From the NCBI RefSeq assembly GCF_000381045.1, contig NZ_KB905732.1, positions 54,903 through 118,902 of the forward strand: 64,000 bases of DNA, written 5' to 3'. A model generated the notes under the pieces. That model was not told the origin of the DNA and did no database searches. It was given only the letters and a program-made list of their open reading frames with translations. A program made the translations under genes and the position numbers. Source of the stretch: Thermus scotoductus DSM 8553. Lineage in GTDB: Bacteria > Deinococcota > Deinococci > Deinococcales > Thermaceae. This document shows positions 6,684-49,282 of the stretch, piece by piece. Position 1 is the first letter of the stretch. Each line of letters opens with the position of its first letter.

Positions 6684-8366
<1,683 letters not shown>

Positions 8367-44470: not shown

Positions 44471-45325
44471 TCAGGGCAGGCTTTGCTTGGCCTCCTGGTA
44501 CTCGGCCACCAGCCGGGCAACCACCTCCTTGGCGGAAGGGAGATCCCGGATGAAGGCCACCCCGTGCCCGGCGGAATAAACTTCCTTCCAGGCCTTGCCC
44601 CCACCCTGGCGGAAGCGCTCCAGGGATTCCTTGAGGAAGTTGGCGGGCACCCCGGTCACCTCCGGGGTGTACTGGATGTCCTCAGGAGTGGCCCTCAAGA
44701 GGGCTTCCTTGTACTCCAAGGGGGCCTCGGACTCCAGGGTGGCGATGAAGCGGGTGCCGATATAGGCAGCATCCCCCAGGGCCAAGGCGGCGAGAAGCTG
44801 CCTTCCTGTGGCGATGCCTCCAGCGATGAGCACCGGCACCCCGAGTTCCTCCCTAAGCCAGGGCCCGAGGACAAAGGGGCTCACCATCCCGGCATGCCCC
44901 CCAGCCCCACTGGCCACCGCCACCAGGGCATCGGCCCCGGCTTCCACGGCCTTTCTTCCATGCCTTAACCCCACCACGTCGCACCAGACCACGCCACCAT
45001 AGGCCTTGACCCGCTCCACCACCCGGGTAGGATCCCCCAAGGAGGTGACCACCAAGGGTACCCGGCGTTCCACCACGGCCTTTAGGTCCTCCTCGAGGCG
45101 GGGGTTGTCCTTGAGGATCAGGTTAACCCCAAAGGGCAGGCCCTGGGGAAAGCTCTCCAGGAACTCCCGGAAAGCCGCATGGGTTCGGAAGTTCAAGCTG
45201 GGGATGACCCCGATGGCCCCAGCCTCGGCCACCGCCTTAAGGAGCCTAGCCCCCGAGACCAAAAACATGGGGGCCGCCACGATGGGGTAGCGGATACCCA
45301 GCATGCGGGTGATAGCGGTTTCCAT
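44471..45325 (-). CDS. nitronate monooxygenase / 2-nitropropane dioxygenase family protein
   Basis: FMN-dependent TIM-barrel enzyme of 284 residues in the NMO/FabK-like family: ILGIRYPIVAAPM-type N-terminus (MLGIRYPIVAAPMF), SGAGGHAG, LIAGGIATGRQL and AYIGTRFIATLES. The conserved catalytic His is in GGHAG. Family members oxidise alkyl nitronates or act as enoyl-ACP reductases; without biochemical data the substrate is open. The ATG lies seven bases after TAAAAT. Confidence 0.87.
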   Translation of the reverse strand: METAITRMLGIRYPIVAAPMFLVSGARLLKAVAEAGAIGVIPSLNFRTHAAFREFLESFPQGLPFGVNLILKDNPRLEEDLKAVVERRVPLVVTSLGDPTRVVERVKAYGGVVWCDVVGLRHGRKAVEAGADALVAVASGAGGHAGMVSPFVLGPWLREELGVPVLIAGGIATGRQLLAALALGDAAYIGTRFIATLESEAPLEYKEALLRATPEDIQYTPEVTGVPANFLKESLERFRQGGGKAWKEVYSAGHGVAFIRDLPSAKEVVARLVAEYQEAKQSLP

Positions 45326-45332
45326 GGGAGAG

Positions 45333-45338
45333 ATTTTA
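45333..45338 (-). promoter_or_regulatory. leaderless -10 of the nitronate monooxygenase gene
   Basis: TAAAAT on the minus strand ends seven bases before the ATG at 45325. Confidence 0.5.
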
Positions 45339-45349
45339 CTGGGTTCAAG

Positions 45350-45355
45350 GATAAT
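45350..45355 (+). promoter_or_regulatory. leaderless -10 of the MFS gene
   Basis: GATAAT ends six bases before the GTG at 45362. The ATG at 45357 is out of frame. Confidence 0.5.
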
Positions 45356-45361
45356 CATGGG

Positions 45362-46534
45362 GTGGAACCGGAACGCTCCCTAAGGCTTTCCATCTGGGAA
45401 GGAGCCCTGGCCATCCTCTTCCTCAACTGGAGCACAGGGGTGATCGTCACCGGGTATGCCCTGGCTCTGGGGGCCTCCCCCCAGGCCTTGGCCCTCCTGG
45501 GGGCCCTTCCCTTCCTGGCCCAGCTCCTGGCTCCACTGGCCCTTTTCCTACGGGGAAGCCGCAAGGCCCTAGTGGTGCGGCTGAACTTTCTAGCCCGCTT
45601 GCTCTTTCTGCCCGCTGTCTTGGCTGGCTTTCTTCCGGAGGACCTAAGGGTACCGAGCCTTCTCCTCTTTGCCGGGCTTTCCCAGCTTCTAGCCGCTCCC
45701 GTGGGCGTGCTTTGGCTCTCCTGGATGGCCGATCTGGTGGCGGAGGGAAGGCGGGGGCGCTACTTCGGCTTCAGGAATGCCCTCTTGGGCCTGGTGGGTA
45801 CCTTGGGGAACCTCATGGGAGGCATGGTGGCCGATCGCCTCCCGCCCCCCACGGGCTACCAAGTCATCCTCCTTGTGGGAGTAGGCGCAGGCCTTCTTTC
45901 CGTCTTGCTTCTCCGCCTGCAATCCGAGCCCCCGGAGTCCCCACCTCCCCCGGCCTGGAAGGCCCTCGGGATAGCCTGGCGGGACCTAGCCTACCGGCGG
46001 TACCTGGTCCTCGTCTTCCTGTGGTATGGAGCAGTTATGGTTGGGGGGCCCTACGTGGTGCCCTATTTCATAAGGGTTGGCGGTTTGTCCATGACCGAAG
46101 TGGGCCTATGGACGGTGATCTCCGCCACCAGCGGCCTCTTGTTCGGTCCCATGTGGGGACGGGTAGCCGACCGCGAGGGGCACAAGGTGGTTCTCTTCCG
46201 CACGGGAATGGTGGCAGCCCTTATGCCCGGCCTTTGGCTTTTGGGCTCTTCAGCCCTTCCCTGGCCCATATGGCTCTCTGCCCTTGCTGACGCCCTGGCC
46301 TGGAGCGGCCTGGGCACCGCTTTGGTCAACGCCGTCTTGGCCCAGGCTCCTCGGGAAGGTCGGAACGGCTACCTCGTCCTCTTCTGGCTAGCCATGGGTC
46401 TAGGCGGACTTGCCGGAAGTGTAATAGCGGGAGGCGTTGCCAGCCTGGGCGTGGGACCAAGCCCTTATCATCTCCCTATCCTGCTCTCCTTGGGCCTACG
46501 GTTAGGCGTGGTCCTTCTCCTGCGAAGGCTCTAG
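45362..46534 (+). CDS. MFS transporter
   Basis: A 390-residue major facilitator protein with about twelve transmembrane helices. The cytoplasmic loop between helices 2 and 3 is short (LRGSRKALVVRL), and later loops have GRRGRYFGFRNA and MWGRVADREGHKVVLFR, typical MFS motif A-like segments. GTG start at 45362 is set by the frame and the -10 spacing. The 3' end overlaps the convergent kinase/glycosyltransferase chimera by 33 bases. Substrate unknown. Confidence 0.85.
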   Translation: MEPERSLRLSIWEGALAILFLNWSTGVIVTGYALALGASPQALALLGALPFLAQLLAPLALFLRGSRKALVVRLNFLARLLFLPAVLAGFLPEDLRVPSLLLFAGLSQLLAAPVGVLWLSWMADLVAEGRRGRYFGFRNALLGLVGTLGNLMGGMVADRLPPPTGYQVILLVGVGAGLLSVLLLRLQSEPPESPPPPAWKALGIAWRDLAYRRYLVLVFLWYGAVMVGGPYVVPYFIRVGGLSMTEVGLWTVISATSGLLFGPMWGRVADREGHKVVLFRTGMVAALMPGLWLLGSSALPWPIWLSALADALAWSGLGTALVNAVLAQAPREGRNGYLVLFWLAMGLGGLAGSVIAGGVASLGVGPSPYHLPILLSLGLRLGVVLLLRRL

Positions 46535-47776
46535 CCCCTTCCTTCTCATCTCCCCCCAAACCCCCCGCTTGCGCCACACCTGGAAGGTGGCCAAGAAGCG
46601 CTCCAGGGCCAGGACCTGCAGGTAGCCCAAGACCTCGAGGAAGGGCAGGAGGAGAAGCCTCAGGCGCTCCCCCAGGCTAGGGTAGCGCTTAAGGAGGGGG
46701 GTCTCCACCCCCACGGCCAGGTGGGAGAGCAAAACCCCATACCCCAGGGCGAAGAGAAGGAAGAGGAGGGCGAAAGGGGGGTTAAGGAGGCCTAGGGCAG
46801 CAAAAAGGGGTAGGCTCACATACCCCAGGACCTCCACCACCGGACCCAAGGCCTCAAAGAGGAGGAAGTAGGGCATGGCCACCAGGCCCAACCGACCATA
46901 CCGGGGGTTGAAGAGCATGATGCGGTGGTTCCAAAGCACCTCCCATAGCCCCCGGTGCCAGCGGTTCTCCACCTCCCCCCGGGTGGAGGCCCGGTAAAAA
47001 GGCTCAAAGACCCTGGCCTGCTCCTCCTGGGGAATACCTGGACCCGTATCGGAAATAGCCATCCCATACTGGTCCTGCCCCACAAGAAGGCGCACTGCCA
47101 CCCGCCCCCCTTCCGGGGTGTATTTCACCGAATTGTTAAGGACGTTCAGCACAGCCTGGTAAAGCCATTCCCGGTCCCCATACACCCAGGCCTCCCGTTT
47201 CGGCAGGACCAAGCGGAGCTGGATTCCCTTCCTGCGGGCCAAAGGCCGTATCTCGTCGGCCACCTGGCGGAGAAGGGCCTTTAGGTCTACCCGCTCGCTT
47301 TTGAGCCGAACCCCCTGGCCCAGGCGTAGGTATTCCTGAGCTTTCTGCAGAAGCTCTTGAATACGACGGGCACTCTTTTCGGCAATGGCCAGAAGTTCCT
47401 TGCCTTCCTGGGGAAGACCTTCGGTCTCTAAGGCAAGCTCCAAGGCTCCCAGAACGCTCATCAAGGGGTTCTTGATCTCGTGGAGGAGGAGACCCAGAAG
47501 CCTTGCGCTTTCCTCCTGGCTTCTTAGGAGGGCGAGCTCCCGCTCCTTTAGCTCCAAAACCTCCCGAAAGACCTGAAGGAGAAGCCGCAGGGCCTCCTGG
47601 ACCTCCCGGGAAGGGGGCGGTCCTTCCCAGTAAAGGGCGAGGTCCCCTTCTTCAAAAAGTTTCTCGCCCCGCAAGGGCCCCTCGGGAAGGACCTCACCCC
47701 GGAAGAAAACCCGCACCGGGTAGCGGCGGAGGACCTCCGCCAGAAACCCTAGGTGAGCGGGCGGGGCCTTTACCAT
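46502..47776 (-). CDS. chimeric protein: truncated histidine kinase joined to glycosyltransferase-2 C-terminus
   Basis: The 424-residue frame joins two unrelated gene parts. Residues 1 to about 264 are a soluble sensor histidine kinase: phospho-acceptor His99 (LLHEIKNPLMS), N box near 211-219 (NVLNNSVKYT), G1 box DTGPGIP at 243-249 and FEPFYRAS. At about residue 265 (near 46984) it changes into RGEVENRWHRGLWEVLWNHRIML, the C-terminal membrane part of a processive family 2 glycosyltransferase, with four transmembrane helices. The G2 box/ATP lid is missing, so kinase activity is doubtful, and the glycosyltransferase catalytic domain is missing. An in-frame deletion between two neighbouring genes explains it best. 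Confidence 0.82.
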   Translation of the reverse strand: MVKAPPAHLGFLAEVLRRYPVRVFFRGEVLPEGPLRGEKLFEEGDLALYWEGPPPSREVQEALRLLLQVFREVLELKERELALLRSQEESARLLGLLLHEIKNPLMSVLGALELALETEGLPQEGKELLAIAEKSARRIQELLQKAQEYLRLGQGVRLKSERVDLKALLRQVADEIRPLARRKGIQLRLVLPKREAWVYGDREWLYQAVLNVLNNSVKYTPEGGRVAVRLLVGQDQYGMAISDTGPGIPQEEQARVFEPFYRASTRGEVENRWHRGLWEVLWNHRIMLFNPRYGRLGLVAMPYFLLFEALGPVVEVLGYVSLPLFAALGLLNPPFALLFLLFALGYGVLLSHLAVGVETPLLKRYPSLGERLRLLLLPFLEVLGYLQVLALERFLATFQVWRKRGVWGEMRRKGLEPSQEKDHA

Positions 47777-47818
47777 CTACTCCACGCTACTCGAGGCCCT
47801 TGAAAAGCCTGTGAAAAC

Positions 47819-48136
47819 CTAAGGCCTAGGAGCCATCACCACCAGGAGGAGGGCCGGGTTCGCCGACTCGTTGCGCACGCCGTGGGCCTCCCCTGAACGG
47901 GCCAAAGCCGCCATCCCCGGGGCCAAAAGGGCCTCCTCCTCCCCGATGCGTACCACCACTTCCCCTTCCAGCACGTAGTAGATCTTATCGGAACCCTCGT
48001 GGGTGTGGGTCTTTTGCGCCTGACCAGGAAGGAGGGCGTAAAGGTCAAAGAACATCTTGTCGGATTCAAAAACCGGGATTTTGGCCATTTTCTCCGGGTT
48101 ATAGCGCACGAGACTCCGCAGGTCCTTAATCTCCAT
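47819..48136 (-). CDS. cupin domain protein
   Basis: A 105-residue single-domain cupin. The metal site is readable as motif 1 KTHTHEGSDKIYYVLEGE (His, His, Glu) and motif 2 GEAHGVRNES (His). Substrate unknown; such small cupins include isomerases, dioxygenases and sugar or ligand sensors. ATG follows TAGACT by seven bases. Divergent from tRNA-Pro, whose -35 lies two bases beyond this -10. Confidence 0.85.
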   Translation of the reverse strand: MEIKDLRSLVRYNPEKMAKIPVFESDKMFFDLYALLPGQAQKTHTHEGSDKIYYVLEGEVVVRIGEEEALLAPGMAALARSGEAHGVRNESANPALLLVVMAPRP

Positions 48137-48143
48137 GGCCCCA

Positions 48144-48149
48144 AGTCTA
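48144..48149 (-). promoter_or_regulatory. leaderless -10 of the cupin gene
   Basis: TAGACT on the minus strand ends seven bases before the ATG at 48136. Confidence 0.5.
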
Positions 48150-48150
48150 C

Positions 48151-48180
48151 TTGACGAAAGCCTAAGTGGGGCACTACACT
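48151..48180 (+). promoter_or_regulatory. promoter of tRNA-Pro
   Basis: TTGACG, 18 bases, TACACT; the tRNA begins 13 bases later. Confidence 0.7.
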
Positions 48181-48193
48181 AACCTTTGCGCGC

Positions 48194-48270
48194 CGGGGAG
48201 TAGCGCAGCCTGGTAGCGCACACGCTTGGGGTGCGTGTGGTCGTCGGTTCAAATCCGGCCTCCCCGACCA
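48194..48270 (+). tRNA. tRNA-Pro(GGG)
   Basis: Acceptor CGGGGAG/CTCCCCG, anticodon GGG in loop TTGGGGT, T arm TCGGTTCAAATCCGG, encoded ACCA. Confidence 0.95.
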
Positions 48271-48274
48271 AAAG

Positions 48275-48296
48275 GCCCCGCCTAGCTAGGCGGGGC
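48275..48296 (+). terminator. terminator of tRNA-Pro
   Basis: A 22-base palindrome with arms GCCCCGCCTA and TAGGCGGGGC, followed by TTAACTTTTC. Confidence 0.8.
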
Positions 48297-48325
48297 TTAA
48301 CTTTTCTCTGGGCCTTTTCCGGGGT

Positions 48326-48353
48326 CCCCACTCTGCCTAGCGGCAGAGTGGGG
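48326..48353 (-). terminator. terminator of the tkt-prk-rpe-fba operon
   Basis: Twelve-base perfect arms CCCCACTCTGCC and GGCAGAGTGGGG with a TAGC loop. On the minus strand it starts four bases after the fba stop; the same TAA-TACCACCCCA lead-in occurs after the helicase gene. Confidence 0.8.
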
Positions 48354-48358
48354 TGGTA

Positions 48359-49282
48359 TTATGCCCGGCCCACCGTGCCCATCAGTTCAAACTTCTCCCG
48401 GATCACCTGCTTGAGGTAGTCCCGACCTTTGCCGATGATCTTCCGGGGGTCGAACTCCTTGGGGTTCCCCACCACCACCTCGCGGATCCCCAGGGTCATG
48501 GCCAGGCGCAGGTCGGTGTCGATGTTGATCTTGGCGATGCCGTTGGGGATAGCTTTCCTGATGTCCTCGTCGTGGATGCCCGTGGCCTCCTTGAGCTCGG
48601 CCCCCGTGGCCAAGAGCTTCTCCTTAAGCCAGGTGGGAACCCCGCTCGCCCCGTGGAGCACCAGGGGAATGGAAACCCGCTGGCTGATCTCCTCGAGGCG
48701 CTTGTGGTCGATGTAGGGCCGGCCCTTCCCCTTGTAGGCCCCGTGGCTGGTGCCGATGGCGATGGCCAGGTAGTCGATCCCCGTTTCCGCCACGAAGCGC
48801 TCCGCCTCATCGGGGTCGGTGAGGAAGGCCTCCGCCTCGGACACCTGGATGTTGTCCTCAATGCCCTGAATCCGGCCCAGCTCCGCCTCCACGCTCACCC
48901 CCACCGCATGGGCCGCCTCCACCACCTTCTTGGTTTCGGCCACGTTCTCCTCAAAGGGATGGTGGCTGACGTCGATCATCACGCTGGTAAAGCCCGCCCT
49001 CAGGGCCTGCATCACCATCTTGAAGTCGGCCCCGTGGTCCAGGTGAAGGACCACGGGCACCCGCACCCGGCTCGCCATGTCCTTCACCAGGTTGGCCAGG
49101 TTCTCCATCCCAGCGTACTTCCTGGCCCCGTCCGAGATCTGGATGAAGACCGGGGCCCGCACCTCCTCGGCCACCTCCAGAATGGCCTGGGTGATCTCCA
49201 GGTTGTTGGTGTTGAAGCCGGGTACAGCATAGCCTTCCCGCCGCGCCTTGTCCAAAACCTCTTTACCTATCGCCAAGGGCAT
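48359..49282 (-). CDS. fba: class II fructose-bisphosphate aldolase
   Basis: This zinc-dependent aldolase interconverts fructose 1,6-bisphosphate and the two triose phosphates. The 307-residue protein has the HLDHGADF zinc/catalytic motif, SHHPFEENV, the GTSHGAYKG loop and the ASGVP phosphate-binding segment, closest to the Thermus class II form. It overlaps rpe by 20 bases and is the last gene of tkt-prk-rpe-fba. It also serves glycolysis and gluconeogenesis. Confidence 0.95.
   Translation of the reverse strand: MPLAIGKEVLDKARREGYAVPGFNTNNLEITQAILEVAEEVRAPVFIQISDGARKYAGMENLANLVKDMASRVRVPVVLHLDHGADFKMVMQALRAGFTSVMIDVSHHPFEENVAETKKVVEAAHAVGVSVEAELGRIQGIEDNIQVSEAEAFLTDPDEAERFVAETGIDYLAIAIGTSHGAYKGKGRPYIDHKRLEEISQRVSIPLVLHGASGVPTWLKEKLLATGAELKEATGIHDEDIRKAIPNGIAKINIDTDLRLAMTLGIREVVVGNPKEFDPRKIIGKGRDYLKQVIREKFELMGTVGRA

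Follow-up and report, generated by a model that had tools for sequence, protein, structure and literature searches.

How did the front half of a histidine kinase come to be read in one frame with the membrane end of a glycosyltransferase, and is the product a scar or a new protein? The question arises from an open reading frame of 424 codons in Thermus scotoductus DSM 8553, which lies in a stretch of 64,000 nucleotides that we call the window (Table 1). The frame (window translation P0001) runs uninterrupted from ATG to stop. A GGAG sits 3 bases upstream of its start codon, which is short spacing for a ribosome-binding site, and a consensus scan of the minus strand of 46300–48400 returned no promoter-like site. 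The original prediction that kinase and glycosyltransferase are fused in frame here holds: the frame is open, Pfam recognizes kinase domains in its first half and its tail resembles that of the GT2-type glycosyltransferase P0062.

The kinase half keeps its HisKA domain (residues 92–154; PF00512, 39.9 bits against a Pfam cut-off of 26.9), in which we take His99 to be the phospho-acceptor from its place in the motif. The HATPase_c domain, at residues 200–266, covers only profile positions 1–67 of 111 and is thus not a complete domain; in the intact relative P0004, it spans positions 1–110 of 111. Under the box names that we presume to apply to these stretches (H, N, G1 for DTGPGIP and G2 for GTGLGL), the fusion retains the H box, the N box, DTGPGIP and FEPFYR and has lost GTGLGL, the next motif after FEPFYR in its relatives, along with everything beyond. 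The ATP-binding domain had been described as replaced from about codon 265. The loss of its end and the fusion joint itself stand, but the replacement is not of the whole domain, as the N box, G1 box and FEPFYR remain, and the joint falls between codons 270 and 271 (46966/46967).

Beyond the joint, residues 271–424 are identical to the C-terminus of P0062 at 148 of 154 positions. P0001 has no glycosyltransferase match in Pfam, whereas P0062 has three (PF13641, PF00535 and PF13632), so the GT-A catalytic domain is missing. Both catalytic centres had been thought incomplete: this is right for the kinase domain, which is cut, and falls short for the GT2 catalytic domain, which is wholly absent. 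The membrane half has a long hydrophobic stretch at about residues 296–358 and a second one at 372–392 that is present in the window allele and not in P0003, a second fusion protein described below. P0001 shares the hydrophobic stretches of P0062, the extra one at 372–392 appearing where Arg386 has become Leu, and the C-terminal membrane helices of the GT2 type thus appear, from sequence, to be present in the fusion. A structure model of low confidence (mean pLDDT 62.9, pTM 0.32, residues 258–281 below 50) places long helices at 291–327, 333–362 and 368–403. With one or two hydrophobic stretches and three long helices in that model, the four helices once proposed for the membrane half were not confirmed. 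The best 50 of 402 PDB matches to this weak model are nearly all histidine kinases or phytochromes, and sequence matches to solved structures gave the same two family labels again and nothing more.

Table 1. Features of the fusion locus and its surroundings, in window coordinates
Feature	Position	Strand	Basis
Fused ORF, kinase head and glycosyltransferase tail, 424 aa	46502..47776	-	ORF list, Pfam
Kinase half, residues 1–270: N-terminal region, HisKA, truncated HATPase_c	46967..47776	-	Pfam, alignment
Glycosyltransferase C-terminal half, residues 271–424 and stop; hydrophobic, without catalytic domain	46502..46966	-	alignment, Pfam, hydropathy
Deletion junction; last kinase-side base (G) common to both parents	46966..46967	.	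blastn
Hairpin, 7-bp stem and 8-nt loop, in kinase coding sequence, foot exactly at the breakpoint	46967..46988	-	folding versus shuffles; modest support
Convergent MFS-like transporter ORF, overlapping the fusion 3' end by 33 bp	45179..46534	+	ORF list; same place in sister loci where present
Cupin-like gene, upstream fixed flank of the operon	47819..48136	-	ORF list, sister loci
Nitronate-monooxygenase-like gene (NMO), fixed flank on the opposite side	44471..45358	-	ORF list, sister loci
tRNA-Pro(GGG), beyond the cupin-like gene	48194..48270	+	tRNA found

A comparison of gene order in sister strains had been proposed as a check, and it found the kinase and GT2 genes apart in most of the genus. 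Counting the window's own genome, 21 of 27 Thermus genomes carry both halves separately, on one contig and strand and 3.5–6.2 kb apart; the other six comprise two with the glycosyltransferase half only, three with neither (E ≤ 1e-40) and the window's genome, where both are in one frame. The sister order is cupin, kinase, receiver, HEAT, glycosyltransferase, (MFS) and NMO, and that of the window is cupin, kinase (1–271), glycosyltransferase (321–468), MFS and NMO. The neighbours' family names (MFS-like, cupin-like and NMO) are our own presumptive assignments, that of the MFS-like gene made without a domain search. In the sister operons, the kinase is about 720 aa long, with a hydrophobic span and TPR repeats, the receiver is about 121 aa, the HEAT-repeat protein is 379 aa (locus L039) and the glycosyltransferase is 467–468 aa (loci L036 and L039). 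The receiver gene of these operons was not found at the window locus, where the fusion has no such regulator adjacent to it.

The two sides of the joint can be placed to the base. We compared the window by blastn with 12 sister loci, 10 of which reach both sides (10 of the 21 genomes with separate halves), and all 10 gave the same breakpoint, similarity ending at 46966 or 46967 and resuming on the other side at 46967; the 11 loci added later served for gene order and open frames, outside this breakpoint comparison. Across the 10 loci, the sister positions of the two sides lie 3538–3866 bp apart, and the parents share a single base at the joint. Separate parents in the same order, one breakpoint and a missing middle are, as far as sequence can tell, the signature of a deletion scar. 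The multi-kilobase in-frame deletion, one of the two origins first suggested, is strongly supported by the separate matches in 21 of the 27 genomes, the shared breakpoint and the lack of a second copy. A repeat at the joint was considered as its cause and rejected, the parents having one common base there. Slippage or end-joining with almost no common sequence probably produced the deletion, and the hairpin that ends on the kinase side of the break may possibly have aided it. In the intact kinase of L039, which is of the GEVE type, this hairpin has 8 bp and only 8 of 200 shuffled sequences fold as well. For the 7-bp version in the window the figure is 31 of 200, a less marked result, and for the L036 kinase, which has GEAE where L039 has GEVE, it is 147 of 200, a poor fold.

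The window is not the only source of such a protein. A search over 5.8 billion protein sequences, with candidates capped at 7994 and the best 120 of at least 335 matches examined, included two full-length fusions besides the window's, P0002 and P0003; two further searches, one started from P0003 and one from just the junction region, gave no third fusion among the matches listed. P0002, encoded on a contig of 1923 bases, is the representative of the window protein's own cluster (21 member sequences) and differs from the window protein at two residues, 360 and 386. P0003, which comes from a cluster of 5 and a 6157-base ENA contig, is 85% identical to the window protein overall (360/425), with unequal halves: its glycosyltransferase half shows 95.5% identity with that of the window and 96.8% with that of P0002, and its kinase half, by subtraction, is about 79% identical to the window's and has its closest listed match in P0044 (88%), a kinase that carries the name T. 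islandicus. All three proteins have VENRWHRGLWEVLWNHRIMLF in common at and after the joint, and the string NHRIMLF is absent from all 10 intact glycosyltransferases aligned. That a single junction occurs with two kinase halves suggests one origin followed by recombination, although the P0003 contig could itself be chimeric.

Each half also has close intact kin. Over residues 1–268, the fusion is 100% identical to P0004, one of the Thermus HisKA–HATPase–TPR kinases with a central hydrophobic span (P0012 and others also belong here); unlike them, it is without the HATPase end, the kinase hydrophobic span and the TPR repeats. Its last 154 residues are 96% identical to P0062, named glycosyl transferase, which we group with P0061, named cellulose synthase/poly-beta-1,6-N-acetylglucosamine synthase-like by its source, as Thermus GT2 membrane glycosyltransferases; unlike these, the fusion has neither the N-terminal helix nor any of the catalytic domain and reads VENRW for their QRNRW. 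The tail of P0002 differs from P0062 at four residues only, all close to the joint. Because intact proteins match each half at 96–100%, the fusion would be young or still recombining with intact alleles. Along the kinase half, the window and L036 (genome G019) show 12 mismatches in the first 630 nt of the fusion and differ at 28 of 180 positions from nt 630 to the joint. A recombination edge inside the fused gene at about nt 630 is likely on this pattern.

An assembly error had been named as the way in which the fusion could prove unreal, through an assembler jumping from the kinase gene to the glycosyltransferase gene. The genome is in 84 contigs, and P0002, belonging to the window's own protein cluster, may be less than fully independent, which leaves some room for such an artefact. 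However, P0002 is two residues off the window and P0003 is a fusion of its own whose kinase half differs, the one common base at the joint in 10 loci offers no repeat to mislead an assembler and the missing 3.5–3.9 kb is on no other contig of an assembly rated 100% complete. We therefore reject an assembly error as very unlikely. A 5112-bp sister operon, compared with the genome of the window, matched nothing there beyond the two pieces that abut at this locus and three short segments elsewhere (147, 51 and 36 bases on the query), and neither protein nor DNA search located an intact copy elsewhere in that genome. The other kinases that the search found in it match at no more than 35%.

Signs of constraint on the three fusion proteins are mixed. 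We took invariant columns from 43 intact kinases and 51 intact glycosyltransferases, selected by length limits and an exact RASTRGE or NRWHRG string, a filter that left out others such as P0044. The window protein has two changes at invariant GT2 columns, the most of 54 sequences; P0003 has four at invariant kinase columns, including the H-box proline, a count that one intact kinase equals and none of the 46 sequences exceeds; neither half of P0002 has any. This suggests, at the sequence level, relaxed constraint in one half of two of the three fusion proteins, a relaxation that is not uniform given the unchanged P0002. The dN/dS values mostly reflect time before the fusion, and synonymous sites are near saturation except against G019, so these values carry little weight: for the tail, the window against nine sisters gives 0.115–0.242, on average somewhat above the mean of 36 sister pairs (0.118) yet inside their range (0.057–0.249), and for the kinase half it gives 0.077–0.146, with a sister-pair mean of 0.145 (36 pairs, range 0.071–0.229).

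The operon itself decays repeatedly in the genus. Frame inspection found all four genes open in 17 of the 27 genomes and the operon broken or missing in 10. Besides the window's fusion, these cases are an out-of-frame HEAT deletion (G019), kinase frameshifts (G024 and G022), a glycosyltransferase frameshift (G015), a kinase found as residues 677–723 only (G010), a kinase not found (G006), a locus in which no operon gene was found and 130 bp separate the cupin match from the MFS match (G014, L177 400–1100) and two scars with pieces of the kinase front and glycosyltransferase tail (G021, L175 3698–4117; G042, L176 1–269). Both scars have breakpoints that differ from the window's and are in frame at their joints, that of G021 passing in one frame from about kinase 50 to TPR 619–673 to glycosyltransferase 436 and that of G042 from about kinase 61 to glycosyltransferase 437. 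Both are frameshifted near codon 35, which may reflect sequencing errors because the assemblies are incomplete (G021 is rated 87% complete; G042 is rated 65%, in 620 contigs, and its contig begins inside the scar). The joints are thus in frame in four of four cases (one in the window, two in G021 and one in G042), or four of five with the G019 HEAT deletion; at a one-third chance per joint, four of four would occur 1 time in 81 and at least four of five about 1 time in 22, figures that come from a small sample found after the fact, and we treat the excess of in-frame joints as a lead only.

We consider it likely that one in-frame deletion of about 3.5–3.9 kb left the fused gene as its scar, and the product would then be a catalytically inactive, membrane-tethered kinase stub. 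An ancestor would have had the full kinase–receiver–HEAT–glycosyltransferase operon, from which a single deletion would have removed everything from kinase residue 271, through the receiver and the HEAT protein, to glycosyltransferase residue 320, joining the first 270 kinase codons to the last 154 glycosyltransferase codons. With the G2 box and the last part of its ATP-binding domain missing, the kinase would be unable to autophosphorylate, and the glycosyltransferase, having lost its catalytic domain, would be dead. If made, the protein would be a kinase stub in the cytosol, tied to the membrane by the synthase helices, with neither a working ATP site nor a receiver. The fusion allele may then have moved between species by homologous recombination; it would be tolerated because the operon is dispensable, and its frame would still be open because the scar is young. 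Any residual role would be that of an inert or weakly interfering membrane-anchored phospho-acceptor. In our reading, the fusion arose in the decay of an operon that is dispensable; a new function for it is possible but unsupported.

The other origin first suggested, the birth of a membrane-tethered phospho-acceptor, would make the fusion a new selected protein whose membrane-tied HisKA domain partners receivers, either as a dominant negative or as a phosphate sink. We regard this as unlikely: as first put forward, it had the open frame as its sole positive evidence, in an operon that decays repeatedly. In its favour, none of the three fusion proteins has an interrupted frame, two kinase halves are found with this junction and glycosyltransferase tail, and the kinase/synthase joints in the window, G021 and G042 are all in frame; moreover, the parent kinase P0004 has its own hydrophobic span (315–341), so a membrane anchor would have been kept. 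Against this, the operon's receiver gene was deleted too, invariant residues have changed in the glycosyltransferase half of P0001 and the kinase half of P0003, the scars in G021 and G042 have early frameshifts (possibly sequencing errors) and the out-of-frame deletion in G019 dilutes the run of in-frame joints. A functional remnant kinase, with the stub serving as a phosphatase or as the dimer partner of another histidine kinase, would fit the complete HisKA domain and the perfect match of residues 1–268 to an intact allele, but it is highly improbable with no receiver gene at the locus and with the other kinases of the genome so divergent that shared dimerisation is doubtful. We also entertain, as a long shot, that Thermus repeatedly makes kinase/synthase fusions from this operon, that their frame is preserved at first because the membrane-tethered phospho-acceptor stub is briefly useful, for example in shutting off leftover signalling or surface-polysaccharide control, and that the fusion allele passes from species to species by natural transformation and then decays.

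Scars of this kind have a counterpart in the wrinkly spreaders of Pseudomonas fluorescens, where deletions make in-frame gene fusions that, like the window's, join an upstream gene to a downstream signalling gene, one of them having taken out four intervening genes (PMC4395868). Those fusions are taken to activate a diguanylate cyclase, often with raised transcription (PMC4395868), whereas in the window fusion both catalytic parts are cut and no gain of function is seen. Among the titles and abstract openings listed by literature searches, none describes this kinase–glycosyltransferase fusion or its operon.

By itself, the fusion gene would be a deletion scar of an ordinary kind. More value lies in the wider pattern, in that a four-gene signalling and glycosyltransferase operon at a fixed place has been broken or lost in several ways while the flanking cupin and NMO genes persist where checked, providing a natural series for how and why an operon is lost and whether fusion proteins that arise en route are ever kept. 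All 23 loci inspected have a full-length cupin-like gene, which was found in the other three genomes too, and the NMO-like gene is near full-length in all 22 loci whose stretch reaches it. Of 22 sister loci, 9 have either a partial MFS-like gene or none, so the interval would be labile as a whole. At one sister locus (L146, genome G004), the receiver lies about 2.4 kb farther from the kinase than usual, which points to an insertion in the operon.
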